The translations under genes and the position numbers were made by a program. Shown here piece by piece: positions 18,191 to 24,845 of a DNA stretch of 64,000 nucleotides. Origin of the DNA: Hymenobacter sp. GOD-10R (GTDB lineage Bacteria > Bacteroidota > Bacteroidia > Cytophagales > Hymenobacteraceae); the NCBI RefSeq assembly GCF_035609205.1, contig NZ_CP141184.1, forward strand, positions 1,116,001-1,180,000, given 5' to 3'. The notes under the pieces are model-generated. The model was given only the letters and a program-made list of their open reading frames with translations. It ran no database searches and was not told where the DNA came from. How positions within the stretch are numbered: position 1 is the first letter of the stretch; each line of letters starts with the position of its first letter.

Positions 18191-18421
18191 TTATGCTTCT
18201 TCAACTTCGGATGTAAACGGTAGGACTCCAACGAGCAACCCACCTATTAACACCGCTGAACCATTTCTCAGGGCAGCTTCTCCAATTGAATACGCAACCA
18301 TTTCTCCACAAATCGTCTGATAATCAGCAGGTGTCATAGTTGCTTTGTGCCGAGATGCCATTTCTAACAACAAGTAGCGCAGTGCAATTCCCTGACGGCG
18401 TTTGAGTAAAAGACGAGACAT
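18191..18421 (-). CDS. Small hypothetical protein
   Basis: A 76-residue frame from ATG at 18421 (a TTG two codons upstream is also possible). The N-terminus is basic (MSRLLLKRRQG), the middle is helical (TMTPADYQTICGEMVAYSIGEAALR), and a hydrophobic Gly-rich segment follows (AVLIGGLLVGVLPF), possibly a membrane helix. I do not recognise a family. The minus-strand reading looks more protein-like than the overlapping plus-strand frame. It sits next to the peptide/transporter locus; whether it belongs to it is open. Confidence 0.45.
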   Translation of the reverse strand: MSRLLLKRRQGIALRYLLLEMASRHKATMTPADYQTICGEMVAYSIGEAALRNGSAVLIGGLLVGVLPFTSEVEEA

Positions 18422-18710
18422 AAGCAAGTAGCAGTTGGCAATCGAAGAGAAGTGTTAAGCTTTGCTGTTGTAGTGCCAACCGTTACTTTACATTACAATA
18501 TTACAGTACCCACGAAGGGAAGTAAAGGACATATACAGAGGGATTGTGACTCTGTTTAATAGCGAATGATTTAGCATTTTATAAATAGTAAATTGTTTCT
18601 ATAGTTGTCTGTTTAGTAAACAAATATTTGATTTACAGGATTTTATAATTTTATACTGTACAGAGTAAAGCTAGTGCAAGTAGGATAAAGTGCTTTACGC
18701 GTTGGTAAAA
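18422..18710. other. AT-rich intergenic region without a gene
   Basis: Markedly more AT-rich than its surroundings, with runs such as TTTATAATTTTATA. No frame or known motif could be supported. It separates the small hypothetical gene from the end of the transporter operon. Confidence 0.5.
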
Positions 18711-18741: not shown

Positions 18742-19755
18742 TTATTTACTTGGATGATCTGTTGATAAGGCTAGCTGGCGTAGAGCTAGCATCGTGCACA
18801 GGAGTAGTAACCCTGGTTCGGCTATTAGCCACCATGCTGTTGGGTCTAAACGTGCAGTAGCCATGAGGCGTCCCCAACTCGCTGTTTCTGTTGGCAAACC
18901 GATGCCTAAGAAGGACAGCGTTGTCTCTAAGCCAATGAGGGCTGCTATGCTGAGCGGAAAGGCAGTACGAACACTCCTGCTAGCATTAGGCAGTACGTGA
19001 TAGGCTAGAATAGAAAGGTTGGTCAGGCCCGATGCACGTACTGCTTCTATGTAGGGCAGCACCCTTATCCGCATAACTTCTGCCCGAATCAACCGTGCGG
19101 GCCCCGTCCAGTAAGTGAGGCTTAGCACGATCAGCAGGGTGAAAACGGAAGATTCTTGCACCGAGGCAACCACTAATACCAGTATCAACCGTGGAATTGA
19201 CTCCAACAAAGCAATGACGCTCATCACAAGCCGATCGACGGGAAGTGCTATCGTCACTCGCCGTAAGAACCAGCCATACTTGGTGACAAAGAGAATAGTA
19301 ACTGCAAAACCTAGCAGCGTGAGCGGCCAAGCGAGCGTAGGTGCTGGCCAGAGGTGAAAGCCACTAAATAAGCCAACAAGAAGCAGGCAACTTATACCGA
19401 GTAAGTAGCCCAAGGGAATGCGTAGGTTCGTATCGCCCCAGAAGCCGGCTGCACTACCTAGCAACACGCCAACGCCGATGGCAAGAAGTGCGGCCGGTAC
19501 ACTGACCACCAACGTAGTACGGGCGCCAAAAATCAAACCTGCGAGTAGATCATGACCTTGAGGATCGGTGCCAAGCCAGTGCTGCGGGTCGGCTAAGCCA
19601 GCGAAGGGGGGCTCCGCTAAATGAGTTAGGTCGGAGGCGCCGGGTGCATAAGGAAGGGGTAGCCAGTCGGCTAGTGTCGCTACCACTAGCAGAAAGACCA
19701 ACCATCCAAGCGCAAGTAACTGCCGCCGATTGTTGAGGTAGCTCGGAAAACTCAT
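18742..19755 (-). CDS. Oligopeptide/dipeptide-type ABC transporter permease (OppC/DppC-like)
   Basis: A 337-residue inner-membrane protein with about six TM helices. LGTDPQGHDLLAGLIFGARTTL near the front is the OppC/DppC signature (GTDxxGRDxxSR type), and the cytoplasmic EAA-type loop IEAVRASGLTNLSILAYHVLPN is read near residue 240. The ATG at 19755 overlaps the stop of the preceding permease as ATGA, favouring it over the Met at 19788. Together with the OppB-like partner it should form the membrane channel of a peptide importer. No ATPase gene follows. Confidence 0.92.
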   Translation of the reverse strand: MSFPSYLNNRRQLLALGWLVFLLVVATLADWLPLPYAPGASDLTHLAEPPFAGLADPQHWLGTDPQGHDLLAGLIFGARTTLVVSVPAALLAIGVGVLLGSAAGFWGDTNLRIPLGYLLGISCLLLVGLFSGFHLWPAPTLAWPLTLLGFAVTILFVTKYGWFLRRVTIALPVDRLVMSVIALLESIPRLILVLVVASVQESSVFTLLIVLSLTYWTGPARLIRAEVMRIRVLPYIEAVRASGLTNLSILAYHVLPNASRSVRTAFPLSIAALIGLETTLSFLGIGLPTETASWGRLMATARLDPTAWWLIAEPGLLLLCTMLALRQLALSTDHPSK

Positions 19756-20816
19756 AGCTGCGAACGAAGACGCGGGTCGAGCTGCCAATAAAGTCCATCG
19801 GCCACAACATGGGAAACTAAGCGTACCGAAGCCACTAGCAATACCCCTCCCTGAAGGACCGGATAATCGCGCGTGGCAGCAGCGTCCGCTAAAAGACGCC
19901 CCATGCCGGGCAAAGCAAAAATTACTTCTACCACGACGGCACCCGCTACCATGGCTGGCAGAAGATCCGTAACGAGTGCAACAACCGGCAACAAGGCATT
20001 GCGCAGCGCATGTCGGCGTACTACCTGCTGGAAAGCTAGCCCTTTCGCCCGCGCTGTGACCGAGTAAGCCGTATGTAGTTCGTGCTGCAACGAAGCATCA
20101 AGTTGCGTAACCAACCCAGGCAGGGTAATCAATACCAAGCTAAGAACGGGCAAAGCTAGGTGGTGCAGGTAGCTTCCTGTTTTTGTGAGCCACGAGTCCG
20201 CAAGCTCTTGGTTGGTGACACCGTAGGCTGGAAATAGGGTTAACGTATCAGGGTTGGCTAATAAGTACAGTAGCAGCAGGGCCACTACAAACAAAGGCAA
20301 GGCATCAATGCTGTACAAAGTAGTCAGTAAGTAAGAGCGCCAACGAGGGTGCTGCGCCATCCACAACGATACCCACAAGGCTACCGCAATAGCAAGCAAA
20401 GCTGCCATGGCTGTAAAAGGTAACGTGAACCACAAAGTCTCGGTAAGTAAAGTCGCCACAGGTTGGCTGTCGCGGTACGAGCTGCCTAGCTCACCACGTA
20501 CCAAATGACGCCACCACTGATGGTATTGATTCCCCGCGCCATGCCAATACCAAGTGCTCTGTTCGCCTGAGGAGGAGCGCTGAACCGAAAAGTAGAAAAC
20601 AGGTTTATCTAAGCCAAGGCGCCGGCGTAGTTGCTGCTCAATAGCTTGGCGTTCGGATGGGGTTATGGGCCGACTGCCGGCATCCAGTTGGCTTTCGATT
20701 GCTCGAGATAGGAGTTGATCATCTGGCAGAGCTCGGCTCAGCAGAAAAAAGACGGAAATGATGCCCCAAGTAGCCGGAAGCAGTCGCAGCAAGCGAGTAA
20801 GCAGTAAACGTAGCAT
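19752..20816 (-). CDS. Oligopeptide/dipeptide-type ABC transporter permease (OppB/DppB-like)
   Basis: A 354-residue permease beginning MLRLLLTRLLRLLPATWGIISVFFLL, the typical OppB N-terminus. It has RLGLDKPVFY, GELGSSYRD, HHLALPVLSL, the EAA-type loop YSVTARAKGLAFQQVVRRHAL and VEVIFALPGMGRLLADAAATRDYPVLQG (two adjoining conserved stretches), so the family is clear. It overlaps the next permease by 4 bases and follows the substrate-binding gene by 8 bases, so the three are one operon. An insertion between residues about 60 and 105 (Ser/Trp-rich) is larger than in typical OppB. Confidence 0.92.
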   Translation of the reverse strand: MLRLLLTRLLRLLPATWGIISVFFLLSRALPDDQLLSRAIESQLDAGSRPITPSERQAIEQQLRRRLGLDKPVFYFSVQRSSSGEQSTWYWHGAGNQYHQWWRHLVRGELGSSYRDSQPVATLLTETLWFTLPFTAMAALLAIAVALWVSLWMAQHPRWRSYLLTTLYSIDALPLFVVALLLLYLLANPDTLTLFPAYGVTNQELADSWLTKTGSYLHHLALPVLSLVLITLPGLVTQLDASLQHELHTAYSVTARAKGLAFQQVVRRHALRNALLPVVALVTDLLPAMVAGAVVVEVIFALPGMGRLLADAAATRDYPVLQGGVLLVASVRLVSHVVADGLYWQLDPRLRSQL

Positions 20817-20824
20817 TAACCAAC

Positions 20825-22570
20825 CTATTGGCTTTTATGAGCTGGTTGGGTAATAATAGCTTTTACCTCGTAACCAGGTTTGATTCCTGAAGGCTGCAAG
20901 TTTGCAATTTGATTGGAAGCAACTAACCGGTAGGGAAGAAAAAAAAGTGGCACGAGCGGACTTTCCTGCTGAAGTAAAACCTGGAACTTATGCAGGAGCA
21001 AAACTTTGCGCTTTGGGTTTTCTTCCGCAGAAATAGCTTCGATGAGTTTGTCGCTATTCGGGGTGCCAAAACGAGTGTAGTTGAACACGCCAATACTAGC
21101 CGAGTGTAAAACTGGAGCAAAGTTGAAGATGAACGGATTGCCAGCAAGAGTTCGAATGTAAACATCATACCTACCCTCGCGTAAGCGCCCGCTAAGAAGG
21201 GAACTTTCCGTTGGTTTCAAAATGATAGGAACCCCTATGGTCATTGCTGCATTCTGGAACTGAAGGCCAATCTGCTCAAACAGCGGATCATTGGCGCGGT
21301 AGCTAACGGTTAAAGCTAGCTTTTGTGCGGCTCCGCTGACTGTCCGTCGAAGCCAACTGCCATTGGCCTGCCGGAGCCAACCCGCTTTTTGCAGGAGAGC
21401 CACGGTCTGCGATGCATCATAGGACAGTAACGGCAAACTATCGTTGTAGTAAGGCCGGCTTCGCATGCTGAGCAACCCGACAGTCCGCTCTGCTAGCCCC
21501 TGCTCCATTGCCTGAATTAGCCCGGGAATATTTAGCAGGTGACTAAGTGCCTGCCGCGTCAGATTATCCGTGAGTAAGGGCTGCTTTGTGTTGAAGCCGA
21601 GCGTGACAATCTCGTAAGAAGGGTGCGTGTAGAAATTCAATTTCTGCTGGGCACTTGCTGACGCACGCAAGTTGTTGAAGTCCTTAGCCGGGACTAGAGG
21701 ATAAATATCGATATCTCCTTGACGGAGAGCTAGCAGAGCAGTACCCTGATTAGGAATAATTTGATAGTCAATAGCTAAAGGACGAGCTTCTAATTGGCTA
21801 GGAAGAGGGCGTAGGCGATTTGCCCACCAATTGGATTTTCGCCGAAATCGGAGAAACTGCCCGGTTTGCCATTTTTCTAGTTGGTAAGGCCCACACCCTG
21901 GCAACTGTTCAGGATGATGAGCAAGGTCAGCGGCCTGATAACGGTTTGCAAAAGCCGTAAGCACGGAGTCCTGTTCGAGCGTGGTACTAGCGCTGTTCTG
22001 GAGGTAGGCCAAGCTAATGGATCGCAAACTTCCCGTCTTGTCTAAGGCGTACTCAGGTAGGATAAAGAAATTGCCAGACTCTCTGATATAATCAGGTGAT
22101 CTGCCCTTACAAACCAGCGTGAACGCTCGTGAATCACGTGGATCAAACTGTATGTCTTGAATGAAGTCAAACCTTGCCTTGGCGCCTTCATTAGGTAGCC
22201 CTGGGCAATTCATCACCTTAAGCGTGAAAGCAACATCGCGAGCTTGCACTGGCTGGCCATTATCCCAGGTTGCTGCCTTCCGCAAGTGGTAGGTTAGCAG
22301 CATCAGCGAGTCCTGGTAGCGTACGACAGGTGCTCGGCTGGCTAACCATGGCTCAATCCTTCCTTCCGCATTATCGAAGGTTAGGAGACAGGTATGTAGT
22401 AAATTTAAACCTTCGTTCGCATAAATGTTGGCCATTGCTAATGGATCCAACGTTTCTGGGTCCTGTGGCCAGCGGATACGTACCGTATCGGAATGCTTCT
22501 TCGGACCCGAGCAAGTCGTGAATCCAGCAATAACTAATACAATGAATAGAGACTTAGCTATTTGCAACAT
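20825..22570 (-). CDS. Peptide ABC transporter substrate-binding protein (SBP_bac_5 family)
   Basis: A 581-residue family 5 binding protein. The N-terminus has a hydrophobic stretch ending at FTTC (Cys about residue 20), a weak lipobox that would give a lipid anchor. RWPQDPETLDPLAMANIYANEG opens the mature domain as in OppA/DppA. AATWDNGQPVQARDVAFTLK is the conserved KFHDGxPxTAxDV-type motif, and GCGPYQLEKW and QALSHLLNI follow. It should capture peptides, or a related solute such as nickel chelates, for the two permeases encoded 8 bases downstream. A gap of 84 bases separates it from the repeat-peptide gene upstream on the same strand. Confidence 0.92.
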   Translation of the reverse strand: MLQIAKSLFIVLVIAGFTTCSGPKKHSDTVRIRWPQDPETLDPLAMANIYANEGLNLLHTCLLTFDNAEGRIEPWLASRAPVVRYQDSLMLLTYHLRKAATWDNGQPVQARDVAFTLKVMNCPGLPNEGAKARFDFIQDIQFDPRDSRAFTLVCKGRSPDYIRESGNFFILPEYALDKTGSLRSISLAYLQNSASTTLEQDSVLTAFANRYQAADLAHHPEQLPGCGPYQLEKWQTGQFLRFRRKSNWWANRLRPLPSQLEARPLAIDYQIIPNQGTALLALRQGDIDIYPLVPAKDFNNLRASASAQQKLNFYTHPSYEIVTLGFNTKQPLLTDNLTRQALSHLLNIPGLIQAMEQGLAERTVGLLSMRSRPYYNDSLPLLSYDASQTVALLQKAGWLRQANGSWLRRTVSGAAQKLALTVSYRANDPLFEQIGLQFQNAAMTIGVPIILKPTESSLLSGRLREGRYDVYIRTLAGNPFIFNFAPVLHSASIGVFNYTRFGTPNSDKLIEAISAEENPKRKVLLLHKFQVLLQQESPLVPLFFLPYRLVASNQIANLQPSGIKPGYEVKAIITQPAHKSQ

Positions 22571-22654
22571 TGCCTGGTAACCACACGAAACGGTGGCTAC
22601 CAGGCAAGTTAGGCAATAATTGAAATAGTCGTTAGATCAAGCAGGTACTATCGC

Positions 22655-22927
22655 TTAGTGACCGTCGCCCCAGCCGCCAGCACCACCACCTGTAACTAGG
22701 TGACCGTCGCCCCAGCCGCCAGCACCGCCGCCAGTTTCACTTGTCATGTGGCCATCACCCCAGCCACCGGCGCCACCGCCTGTTTCGCTGGTCATGTGGC
22801 CATCACCCCAGCCGCCAGCACCACCGCCGGTTTCCAACGAAGCTTGCTGAGCAGGCGTGATAGTTGTAGTAGGATTGCCAGTTAGGGTGGCAAATTGGAA
22901 AAGGGCGAGGGCGATGAGTTCGAACAT
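22655..22927 (-). CDS. Small Gly-rich repeat peptide, four TGGGAGGWGDGH units
   Basis: A 90-residue product. Residues 1-30 are hydrophobic then Thr/Pro-rich (MFELIALALFQFATLTGNP), perhaps an unusual leader without basic residues. The rest is four near-identical units of TGGGAGGWGDGH joined by MTSE or LV. There is no Lys, Arg or Cys anywhere. Each unit offers one Trp, one Asp and one His. I know no family with this repeat. Its place 84 bases upstream of a peptide-importer operon and opposite a helical-repeat protein suggests an exported peptide, a post-translationally modified peptide precursor with multiple cores, or a metal-binding repeat. Coding is supported by exact frame-keeping of the 48-base repeats. 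Confidence 0.7.
   Translation of the reverse strand: MFELIALALFQFATLTGNPTTTITPAQQASLETGGGAGGWGDGHMTSETGGGAGGWGDGHMTSETGGGAGGWGDGHLVTGGGAGGWGDGH
22658..22834. repeat. Four tandem copies of a 48-base coding repeat
   Basis: Units begin at 22658 (shortened to 42 bases), 22700, 22748 and 22796 (partial, 39 bases). They differ mainly at third codon positions (for example gtgacc/gtggcc and gccgcc/gccacc in the + strand reading), so the amino-acid repeat is better kept than the DNA. That argues for selection on the protein. Confidence 0.85.
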
Positions 22928-23312
22928 AATGTTGGGTTATATTATGAGAGTTTTGTTTGTGTTTCAGGCGTTTGAATGACACAAAGTTGGCTCATTGCGG
23001 CCCCCATGTAAAGGAAGGTTTGATTGCTTCTATGACTTGTATAATGCGAATAATTTATTAAACTTTATTACGATTCTAAGATTGCCAAATAGTTTTATGC
23101 ATGAGCAACAATAGTTTTTATCCGCTGAATAGTATGATTTTTATCTTAAATTGTGACATTACAATTTCTGTATGTGCTCAATTTCCCACAATACAAAGTA
23201 GAGCTAAGGCCAAGTGAGAAAAAAGGAAGAAATTTGATTTTTTGTGACATAGATTCAATATAAAAACAGCTCACTAAGAGGCGCTTTAAGCTGCCGAAAA
23301 GCCCTTCTTACT
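22928..23312. other. Divergent regulatory region between the repeat peptide and the helical-repeat protein
   Basis: 385 bases, AT-rich, no coding frame. It holds TTGTGACATT at 23151-23160 and TTTGTGACAT at 23241-23250 on the plus strand, and TTTGTGTCAT on the minus strand (22976-22985). Part of the last copy forms CAACTTTG, a near match to the -7 consensus, reading toward the peptide gene. Shared spacing and strand suggest binding sites for a common regulator. Confidence 0.5.
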
Positions 23313-24845
23313 ATGGATGAACTAGCCAATTTAGCTCGCATTGTGACTGATCGTCGCTTAAAAGCGACTCCGCTGCTGGATTTTGGAAGTAAGAATACTT
23401 CCAATAAGGAGGTCGAACTCGTACGACTTCTAGAAAAAGCGCCTGATAGTACCCAACTGCAGTTAACAAAAACGCTCTATGGATCGGTAAGTGCTACTAA
23501 CCAAGCCGCCTTACGCAAGCTGAAGTCGCGCGTACAGCAAAAACTGTTGCACCATTTGTACTTTCTAGATCAATCTGATCCGAGGCACTTAGTGTCCAGA
23601 CAGTACGAATTGCAGTGTATCGAACTCTTGCATCAAATCAGTGTACTTCAAAGTGAAGGAGAGTACAAGATGTCTGAACGCTTGCTGCGCAAGTGTTTAC
23701 GCCTAGCCACTGACGGGGAGTTTACGCAGTATACAGTGATGGCTGCGCGGCTCCTGCGCAATGTGTACGCCCAACAACGGCAGCCAGCCCTATATAAGGC
23801 CGCTTCAGTGCAGCTTACTCATTATCAAAAGCAATTAGAATTAGAGGAAGAAGCTGGACATCTGTATTGGGCAACGAAGATGACCCAAACCCACACCGTA
23901 CGAAGCAGCCGCAATCTTCTTAATAAACTTCCGGAGTATCTGCAGCGCCTACAAGCACTGCACAAGCAAGCAAAAAGCTATGCTACTTTTCATTATCTCT
24001 ATACTACACAGTTGATGTATGAGGGAATGATCGGGAATTATGCGGGAATCATTCGGCTAACTATGGATGCGGCCCGGCAAGCTGCTAAAGGCAAAATCAA
24101 TCGGAAGCGTTTTGACAAGCGCTTTAATCATTTTATGACGGTATACGCGCACTTGCGAAGCCGACAAGTAGAGGAAGGATTAAAGCTAGCCGAAGAGTAC
24201 TTCAAAGAATTTCATCCTTCTTCGGGTAACTGGTTCTATTTCTTAGAATATTATTTACTGCTCGCCATTCATGCTAAGAACTATACGCGTGCACAGGAAC
24301 TGCTGAAGCTAGCTCGGCAGAATCCGTATTATCGTAAGCAACGCGTAGCGGCTCAGCAGCGGTGGGAGCTGTTTGAAACATACCTGCACTTCGTGCAGCC
24401 TGAACAGTCGCCGTTGCGTAGGCTACACTTCTCGCAGTTCGTGCTGACCGTGCCCGATTACAGCCGCGATAAGCGTGGACACAACGTAGCGATTCTGATT
24501 CTACAGTTTCTATACTACTTGCGCAATCATGATGCTGAGGGGCTGCTAACCCGTATGGAAGGCTTGCGCAAATATCAGCAACGCCACTTGCGGGAAGCCG
24601 AAACGCTGCGCAGTCAGCTTTTTTTGCGCTTGCTCATGCTCACAATCAAAGAAAACTTTGATGTGCAGGCTTGTGAGAAGAAAGGACAGGCTCTACTCAC
24701 TCGTTTGCGCGAGACGCCACCACCCGGAGAAGCTTTTGCAGAGATAGAAATCATCCCCTACGAAGAACTTTGGGCCTTGACCTTAGAGATTCTGCGGGTG
24801 AACGCCAAGGAGCTAGCTGCTTCCGAACTGATGGCTTATAGGTAA
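23313..24845 (+). CDS. Helical-repeat (TPR-like) protein with a possible N-terminal winged helix
   Basis: A 510-residue cytoplasmic-looking protein with no signal peptide. Residues about 30-85 (EVELVRLLEKAPDS, LTKTLYGSVS, AALRKLKSRVQQKLLHHL) have the helix, helix and L-x-x-L-x-x-R-L-like pattern of winged-helix/SARP DNA-binding domains. That is a visual judgement. Residues about 100-500 are amphipathic helices in TPR-like pairs (for example EGLKLAEEYFKEFHPSSGNW and YTRAQELLKLARQNPYY). It is transcribed away from the repeat peptide across a 385-base region. By analogy with RRNPP and SARP proteins it could be a peptide-binding regulator; no recognised family confirms this. Confidence 0.7.
   Translation: MDELANLARIVTDRRLKATPLLDFGSKNTSNKEVELVRLLEKAPDSTQLQLTKTLYGSVSATNQAALRKLKSRVQQKLLHHLYFLDQSDPRHLVSRQYELQCIELLHQISVLQSEGEYKMSERLLRKCLRLATDGEFTQYTVMAARLLRNVYAQQRQPALYKAASVQLTHYQKQLELEEEAGHLYWATKMTQTHTVRSSRNLLNKLPEYLQRLQALHKQAKSYATFHYLYTTQLMYEGMIGNYAGIIRLTMDAARQAAKGKINRKRFDKRFNHFMTVYAHLRSRQVEEGLKLAEEYFKEFHPSSGNWFYFLEYYLLLAIHAKNYTRAQELLKLARQNPYYRKQRVAAQQRWELFETYLHFVQPEQSPLRRLHFSQFVLTVPDYSRDKRGHNVAILILQFLYYLRNHDAEGLLTRMEGLRKYQQRHLREAETLRSQLFLRLLMLTIKENFDVQACEKKGQALLTRLRETPPPGEAFAEIEIIPYEELWALTLEILRVNAKELAASELMAYR

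Follow-up and report, generated by a model that had tools for sequence, protein, structure and literature searches.

A probable peptide-signalling cassette in Hymenobacter: a multi-copy propeptide gene, an Opp-type importer and a TPR-like candidate receptor

Organization of the locus

Hymenobacter sp. GOD-10R, a member of the Bacteroidota with a genome of 7.5 Mb, carries a block of five genes that we interpret as a probable peptide-signalling cassette. The block lies within a stretch of 64,000 nucleotides (contig NZ_CP141184.1, positions 1,116,001 to 1,180,000), hereafter the window, to which all coordinates refer. On the minus strand, a small repeat-peptide (propeptide) gene (22655..22927, 90 amino acids (aa)) is followed by genes for a substrate-binding protein (SBP) of the SBP_bac_5 (OppA/NikA) type (20825..22570, 581 aa; PF00496, 1.8e-45), an OppB/DppB-type permease (19752..20816, 354 aa; PF00528, 3.1e-28) and an OppC/DppC-type permease (18742..19788, 348 aa when read from TTG; PF00528, 4.4e-19), for which an internal ATG 11 codons downstream of the listed TTG may be the true start. 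All three transporter components score above the Pfam cut-offs. On the plus strand, the divergent gene at 23313..24845 encodes a 510-aa protein with a predicted helix-turn-helix (HTH)-like N-terminus and predicted tetratricopeptide repeat (TPR)-like helices, which is a candidate peptide receptor and regulator. Neither this protein nor the peptide gave anything above cut-off in Pfam and NCBIfam scans. The divergent control region between the two genes (22928..23312, 385 bp) has a G+C content of 33.8%, compared with 53.3% for the whole window.

The propeptide, defined from the open reading frame (ORF) list, Tandem Repeats Finder and a family alignment, begins with a hydrophobic leader, MFELIALALFQFATLT (22880..22927, minus strand), delimited by sequence and by comparison with 96 relatives, and continues through a Thr/Ala/Ser/Pro-rich linker into four pheromone-like units. 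Each unit reads GGGAGGWGDGH (22796..22828, 22748..22780, 22700..22732 and, at the C-terminus, 22658..22690, all on the minus strand), and Tandem Repeats Finder detects a 48-bp repeat array at 22710-22834 inside the gene. A preliminary description of this DNA had reported a 90-residue repeat peptide without Cys or Lys, an oligopeptide-type binding protein and two permeases in one direction, and a divergent 510-residue protein across an AT-rich spacer; all of these features were confirmed.

Linkage and loss within the genus

A homologue of the 510-aa protein is present in 112 of 120 Hymenobacter genomes, and the SBP (E <= 1e-60) occurs in the identical 112 and is missing from the identical eight. 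A total of 100 loci were fetched from the genus, comprising 96 primary loci (of 111 possible besides the window) and four second copies; the 15 positive genomes without a fetched locus are G092, G033, G011, G093, G094, G090, G096, G018, G074, G108, G100, G091, G107, G098 and G097. Five primary loci end at contig ends, so that their unit numbers are undercounted. In all 96 primary loci, a peptide ORF starts 340-384 bp from the start of the 510 gene (mean 366, sd 7.6), with GTG as the start codon in 16 of them (e.g. L088 and L104), whereas the same loose ORF criteria are satisfied by only 587 of 12197 control windows of these loci, which indicates that the association is not due to chance. The SBP and the two permeases follow in conserved order in 90 of the 96, the remainder being cut by contig ends (five) or rearranged (L115). 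In L115 (G046:C15:164660-171374), two 510 genes point away from a common stretch with one inverted SBP gene and one peptide gene, and a pair of 510 genes at G100:C289 resembles this arrangement.

The eight genomes lacking the block offer a view of its loss. In all of them the PKD and LytTR genes, which flank the block on one side, lie 45-807 bp after rmlD, a flanking gene of the other side (7 kb in the window), and no match to the 510 protein, the SBP or the permeases was found between rmlD and PKD/LytTR; one of these genomes (G095) is 82% complete, with the locus on a 4.4-kb contig. In a tree of flank proteins covering 91 of 104 loci (13 with fewer than 500 aligned residues were dropped), seven of the eight block-less loci group together in a single clade (support 1.0). 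The remaining one pairs with L126 (0.805) within a clade of twelve (0.96), which implies at least two losses of the entire block. The five genes, i.e., the 510 gene, the divergent peptide gene and the genes of the SBP and two permeases, thus behave as one module. A single Ala/Val/Gly-rich ORF that satisfied the loose peptide pattern in one block-less locus (L320) was judged spurious. The sister locus of the block-less clade (L075) has an odd single core containing Cys, HGLGGWCDEG, and its peptide is possibly decaying ahead of loss.

Features of the peptide precursor

Among the 96 relatives, the majority residues of the leader are M-[LF]-[EN]-L-[LI]-[AT]-[IL]-A-L-[LF]-Q, with Glu or Asn at position 3 in 77 and Gln at position 11 in 95. 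Lys-containing leaders (MIKS, MLKS or MLKV) were observed in L064, L066 and L074, whose precursors end in Val-Cys. The number of units per precursor varies from 1 to 20, each unit being built around a Trp; 21 of the 96 precursors have a single unit and 75 are multi-copy, and propeptide length ranges from 46 aa to 297 aa, the longest being multi-copy. In other genera there is mostly one C-terminal unit (such as GGTGNWDTKD, GGTGSWDDNN and IGTSGWDDRN), suggesting that the multi-copy state is mainly an elaboration on the Hymenobacter side.

Units of the same precursor are held nearly identical. In 65 genes with at least three units, identity between copies is 98.5-100% at offsets -5 to +2 from the Trp and 90-93% at +3 and +4, and falls to only 69-78% at -7, -6 and +6. 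Across the 75 multi-copy genes, divergence at fourfold sites is almost equal in core and spacer (0.399 vs 0.406), whereas amino-acid replacements per codon are 0.021 in the core and 0.440 in the spacer; in these statistics the pairs within a gene are non-independent, and genes rich in copies carry greater weight. When adjacent copies in the 65 genes are compared, 969 silent changes and 43 replacements are counted in the core, with the replacements confined to 8 genes. Since silent sites have diverged equally in core and spacer, the identity of the units does not come from recent copying of DNA, and selection acts on a unit of about 8-10 residues. Three precursors (L057, L058 and L061) carry one deviant unit (HGKSGWGESD) amid near-identical ones.

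Between species, by comparison, Gly at -4 and Trp at 0 are fixed and Gly at -1 is nearly so, and the remaining core positions are variable: 89 loci display 63 different ten-residue cores, or 50 different eight-residue cores. No conserved Cys, Ser or Thr was found in the core among the Hymenobacter loci compared. Copies that are identical within a genome and differ between species are what would be expected of a species-specific ligand of one receptor, a pattern that reads as a pheromone signature, and the core locked within each gene points to a likely mature peptide of about 8-10 residues, here GGAGGWGDGH.

Distribution outside Hymenobacter

The 510 family occurs in 196 of 204 Hymenobacteraceae genomes, covering all 6 genera. 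Of 20 loci from the family's five other genera, all have the SBP next to the 510 gene, 19 have both permeases and 19 have the peptide, the sole locus without a peptide being a second copy (L170). At 17 of these loci, none of six Hymenobacter flank proteins was present within the fetched 13.5 kb; the block thus keeps together in genera where it mostly lacks those flanks, which argues for a module beyond mere synteny. In addition, a peptide profile built from alignment A2 was run against the 204 whole genomes and gave 145 matches in 141 of them. All 114 matches whose position relative to a 510 gene is known are divergent neighbours of that gene, 271-878 bp apart; the other 31 have no placement, and one of them, inside a 609-aa frame, is probably a chance match. 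The eight block-less genomes had no match to this profile, which is insensitive. Three weak matches to further peptide copies in the genome of the window (E 0.16-0.57) were taken as chance.

Some variants of the arrangement were also seen. In L172 (in G128), three tandem propeptide genes, which start upstream of the 510 gene at distances of about 376, 635 and 877 bp, take the place of one multi-unit gene, an alternative route to multiplying the signal. Four genomes of genus g5 (G173, G181, G180 and G160) carry two 510 genes in direct tandem. Paralogues of the 510 gene without a detected peptide neighbour (L099 in G054, L128 in G020, L132 in G084 and L170 in G198) may be orphan receptors or eavesdroppers.

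Beyond the family, the picture changes. A 510-like match was found in 75 of 291 genomes of the order (Hymenobacteraceae included), and among 20 loci of distant relatives from other families L207 is the only one in which an SBP and permeases adjoin the 510 gene; L219 has permeases alone, in a different arrangement. L206 and L207, from one genus of another family, have a peptide ending in NGGWVDKDVKK or AIGWDDND beside the 510 gene, and no transporter was found beside that gene in L206; apart from these three loci, neither is seen. Most loci of other families thus lack the cassette, suggesting that the receptor family has a greater age or a wider range than the cassette. Three distant relatives (L212, L219 and L223) are accompanied by short divergent ORFs that start with a hydrophobic stretch and have unrelated C-termini, possibly as further signalling pairs, or by chance. 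The preliminary description had asked, as a check, whether the peptide always occurs beside this transporter and the 510 protein, and would have been refuted by parts that occur independently of each other. For the most part they do not: the parts mostly occur together in related genomes, and within Hymenobacter the peptide accompanies the 510 gene at every primary locus examined, with the gene order kept as described above. The exceptions are the paralogues without a peptide, the rearranged L115 and the distant relatives, which mostly lack the block.

Predicted fold of the candidate receptor

Relatives of the 510-aa protein have 490-530 aa in 99 of the 100 fetched loci, the other (L131) having 472. 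The predicted structure has HTH-like helices at residues 32-85 (23406..23567, plus strand), of modest confidence, followed by 18 TPR-like helices at residues 96-509 (23598..24839, plus strand). The predicted helix at residues 61-85 has a net charge of +5 and contains R73 and K77, the conservation of which is at least 98%. By VIA-align, the best solved-structure matches of the predicted fold are the quorum-sensing receptors Rap and NprR, with an identity of only 8-9% in the eight best structural alignments. The Pfam matches of the family are all below cut-offs, except that one relative from a metagenome database (P0084) has a precomputed assignment to PF17874 (the TPR_MalT model). A sequence search of PDB with the 510 profile produced a single hit (E 3.6), which was taken as chance. 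As for the winged-helix-like start suggested at the outset, an HTH-like arrangement is predicted, at modest confidence, and a wing is not; the nearest solved structures by VIA-align are RRNPP receptors, but the Foldseek ranking, given below, does not show this.

Control region and other features of the locus

The short motifs noticed earlier in the spacer are real and their positions are conserved across the genus. Two TTGTGACAT elements lie on the plus strand, element A at 23151..23159 and element B at 23242..23250, the latter with AAAGG ahead of it at 23222; in the genus, similar elements are found at distances of about 161 and 71 bp ahead of the 510 start. Element C, TTTGTGTCA (22977..22985, minus strand), lies upstream of the peptide gene and recurs about 42 bp before the peptide start. 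TTGTGAC was found in 82 of 96 spacers, compared with about 4 in shuffles. These elements may serve as operators for the 510 protein, or may be special promoters. The genome contains the pattern AAAGG-N10-16-TTTGTGAC twice, once at the present locus.

In the gap between the peptide and SBP genes, an inverted repeat (22571..22606, minus strand) just upstream of the SBP start may form a stem-loop in the mRNA. When folded in L035, a near twin of the window, it has a z of -4.2; the 89 loci folded have a median z of -1.35, with 26 below -2, and a stem-loop is not claimed as a general feature. The motif AACTTGCC is present in 51 of these 89 gaps and is not enriched in the window overall. As to the transporter, the N-terminus of the SBP looks, by eye, like a lipoprotein signal, and NikA and NikC/Opp types are among the top NCBIfam matches for the SBP and permease C, none of which reaches its cut-off. 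Beyond the permeases, a 78-aa ORF at 18191-18427 on the minus strand had no match in the family scan.

Comparison with known peptide-signalling systems

The closest parallels are the RRNPP(A) systems of Bacillota and their phages and plasmids, such as Rap-Phr and NprR-NprX. PMC10075063 defines an RRNPP signature, including a propeptide of 10-100 aa, and states that its analysis was confined to complete Firmicutes genomes (with viruses); PMC9765709 treats RRNPPA of Firmicutes and PMC12998947 places the RRNPPA superfamily in Gram-positive bacteria. As in those systems, a propeptide gene adjoins the gene of a TPR-like protein of about 500 aa (here a candidate receptor), at each of the 96 primary loci and at all of the placed profile matches, and there is an Opp-type importer, here encoded in the locus itself. 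An HTH-like N-terminus, comparable to the HTH of NprR, is predicted in the 510 protein, and its 18 predicted TPR-like helices equal in number those of the nine-TPR receptors of Gram-positive systems described in PMC12700828. The differences are also considerable. The host is a member of the Bacteroidota with an outer membrane, the propeptide gene diverges from that of the candidate receptor and precedes the SBP and permease genes, the leader is mostly non-basic and has Gln at position 11, and the unit is of a Gly/Trp kind. No sequence similarity was detected, and Foldseek does not single RRNPP out. The 510 protein and its relatives are around or just over the usual receptor bound of 250-500 aa, and propeptide lengths lie within the range given in PMC10075063 for the window and above it for the longest multi-copy precursors. 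A basic N-terminus followed by a hydrophobic region is expected of RRNPP(A) propeptides (for Sec, or for PptAB in the case of SHP and PrgQ), of which the hydrophobic region is present here and the basic N-terminus mostly is not. Because of the non-basic leader and the unproven homology, we do not file the system as RRNPP.

Precursors that contain the same pheromone more than once are also known from tandem Phr propeptides of phages phi3T and phi105, which are cut by extracellular proteases, and PMC11343458 cites up to 8 identical copies; in Hymenobacter, by contrast, multi-copy precursors are the rule, with up to 20 copies. The transporter has the SBP_bac_5 protein and two BPD_transp_1 permeases of Opp/Dpp/Nik SBP-dependent ABC importers, from which it differs in having every NCBIfam model hit below cut-off and no ATPase in the block. 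The yeast alpha-factor precursor also contains tandem identical pheromone units with variable spacers; that system is eukaryotic and uses a surface receptor, so it serves as an analogy only. No description of the present system was found in the open-access literature, subscription papers and preprints being outside the search.

Proposed mechanism and alternative explanations

Considering these data, it is likely that the block is a self-contained peptide-signalling cassette that works by an RRNPP-like import-and-bind logic in Bacteroidota; the earlier idea of a Bacteroidota analogue with a multi-copy peptide signal remains the best reading and is supported by the comparisons above. In such a circuit, the small gene would yield a propeptide with a hydrophobic leader, a linker and, in the present genome, four Trp-centred units, and export and proteolysis would release from each precursor several identical short peptides, TGGGAGGWGDGH-type 8-12-mers. 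Being small, the peptide might cross the outer membrane through porins. The SBP would capture it, and the two permeases, together with an OppDF-type ATPase encoded elsewhere, would return it to the cytoplasm, where it would be bound inside the TPR superhelix of the 510 protein. Binding would then alter the interaction of that protein with DNA at the common control region, and hence the divergent promoters, giving an autoregulated quorum-type circuit. A fuller proposition, to which we attach somewhat less confidence while still thinking it probable, is that Bacteroidota possess a complete, vertically inherited import-and-bind pheromone system with an in-locus importer and 1-20 species-specific Trp-centred copies, whose receptor is an unrecognised outgroup of, or convergent with, the Gram-positive RRNPP receptors.

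Several observations count against these views. The weakest point is the export route: Sec signals have a basic N-terminus, which is missing from the leader (just 3 of 96 relatives have Lys or Arg among residues 1-12), and there is an outer membrane to cross. The block contains no ATPase gene; elsewhere the genome has a single 677-aa ORF that combines two OppD/F-type ATPase halves, and its SBP_bac_5 genes number two, which makes sharing of an ATPase plausible. With regard to the receptor, no sequence relation to RRNPP proteins was found by Pfam, NCBIfam or PDB profile search, and Foldseek ranks generic TPR superhelices (LGN) first and RapH 48th, with no match at E <= 0.001. Only one of four second-copy 510 genes in Hymenobacter (L130) has a peptide, the other three having none. 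The flanks of the block are themselves syntenic (hemC, a peptidyl-prolyl isomerase gene and rmlD on one side, PKD and LytTR on the other, in 62-92 of 104 loci depending on the gene), so that linkage within Hymenobacter alone proves little, being partly plain synteny. The peptide profile missed 63 of the 204 genomes, including several with a known peptide (e.g. G002, G010 and G028), and its silence elsewhere is therefore weak evidence. Coevolution of core and receptor was considered as well: in partial Mantel tests over 89 of the 96 loci, in which relatedness was not controlled, the core correlated with the 510 protein given the SBP at 0.28 and with the SBP given the 510 protein at 0.057, but the leader, as a control, shows the same trend (0.175 vs 0.039), and receptor-specific coevolution is not used as evidence. 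Finally, a search of the genome for a regulon with the element A pattern found one unrelated site, the exact spacing not fitting the present locus, and with the element B pattern the present locus plus one; as reversed-pattern controls gave one match each, no regulon is claimed.

Other functions of the locus were weighed against the same evidence. A secreted, multi-copy antimicrobial or interference peptide of the microcin-like kind, with the importer for uptake or scavenging and the 510 protein controlling expression, would suit a small repetitive peptide adjoining an Opp-type importer, whose permeases match, far below cut-off, models of the microcin C transporter (PRK15133 YejB and PRK15021). 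We regard it as unlikely, given that identity of copies within a genome and change between species fit a self-recognised ligand better, and that Pfam revealed no exporter, immunity protein or modifying enzyme among nine representatives of recurring neighbour clusters (histidine kinase, PKD, DnaX-like, PD40/OmpA, TPR and DUF2279, with three matchless), a survey that is not exhaustive; a tenth recurring unplaced cluster consists of long propeptides themselves. The same survey bears on the notion that the Trp unit is enzymatically modified, e.g. cyclised, into a ribosomally synthesized and post-translationally modified peptide (RiPP), whether a signal or not. Multi-copy precursors are known in RiPPs, and the units are Gly-rich and Trp-centred, but conserved Cys, Ser or Thr residues are absent from the core and the six neighbour clusters with a Pfam match include no modifying enzyme (a survey of recurring neighbours in which three clusters had no match), which leaves this the most improbable of the alternatives.

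Import of peptides or a metal chelate, with the peptide as carrier or decoy and the 510 protein sensing the substrate, would accord with the sub-cut-off NikA and NikC/Opp hits and with the His or Asp present in many cores; yet cores without His are common (QGGGGWGGD, GGTGGWAGDI and IGGSGWENDA), the fixed residue is Trp, which is no metal ligand, and nutrient or metal uptake gives no reason for one to twenty identical species-specific copies, so we consider it quite improbable. There is similarly little chance, by our judgement slightly less again, that the product is not exported and acts as a membrane-anchored micro-protein, with repeats that make contact, within the cell, with the transporter or the 510 protein. 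The short hydrophobic leader, mostly without basic residues, its conserved polar positions 3 and 11 and the lack, by eye only, of a classical signal peptide speak for such a protein, whereas spacers that vary freely beside locked units, in numbers from 1 to 20, look as if units were cut out, and the linked importer would be left unexplained.

Implications

If the import-and-bind interpretation is true, intracellular peptide quorum sensing would be extended across the outer-membrane divide; should the peptide stay in the envelope, the circuit would respond to what the cell itself produces or to proteolysis in the envelope, and the term 'quorum sensing' would be misplaced. Pheromone candidates would be in hand for 97 Hymenobacter loci, the ten-residue cores of the 89 relatives among them, and, because the core is locked within a gene and changes between species, signal specificity and pherotype evolution are open to study with synthetic peptides of about ten residues. 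The 510 protein would also be the kind of remote structural homologue that PMC12700828 proposes as an outgroup for rooting the RRNPPA receptor tree. If the fuller proposition of a vertically inherited pheromone system with its own importer is correct, the distant relatives of the 510 protein in other families of Cytophagales, some of which lie by small hydrophobic-leader ORFs (the three loci mentioned above), would represent a wider reservoir of signalling pairs.

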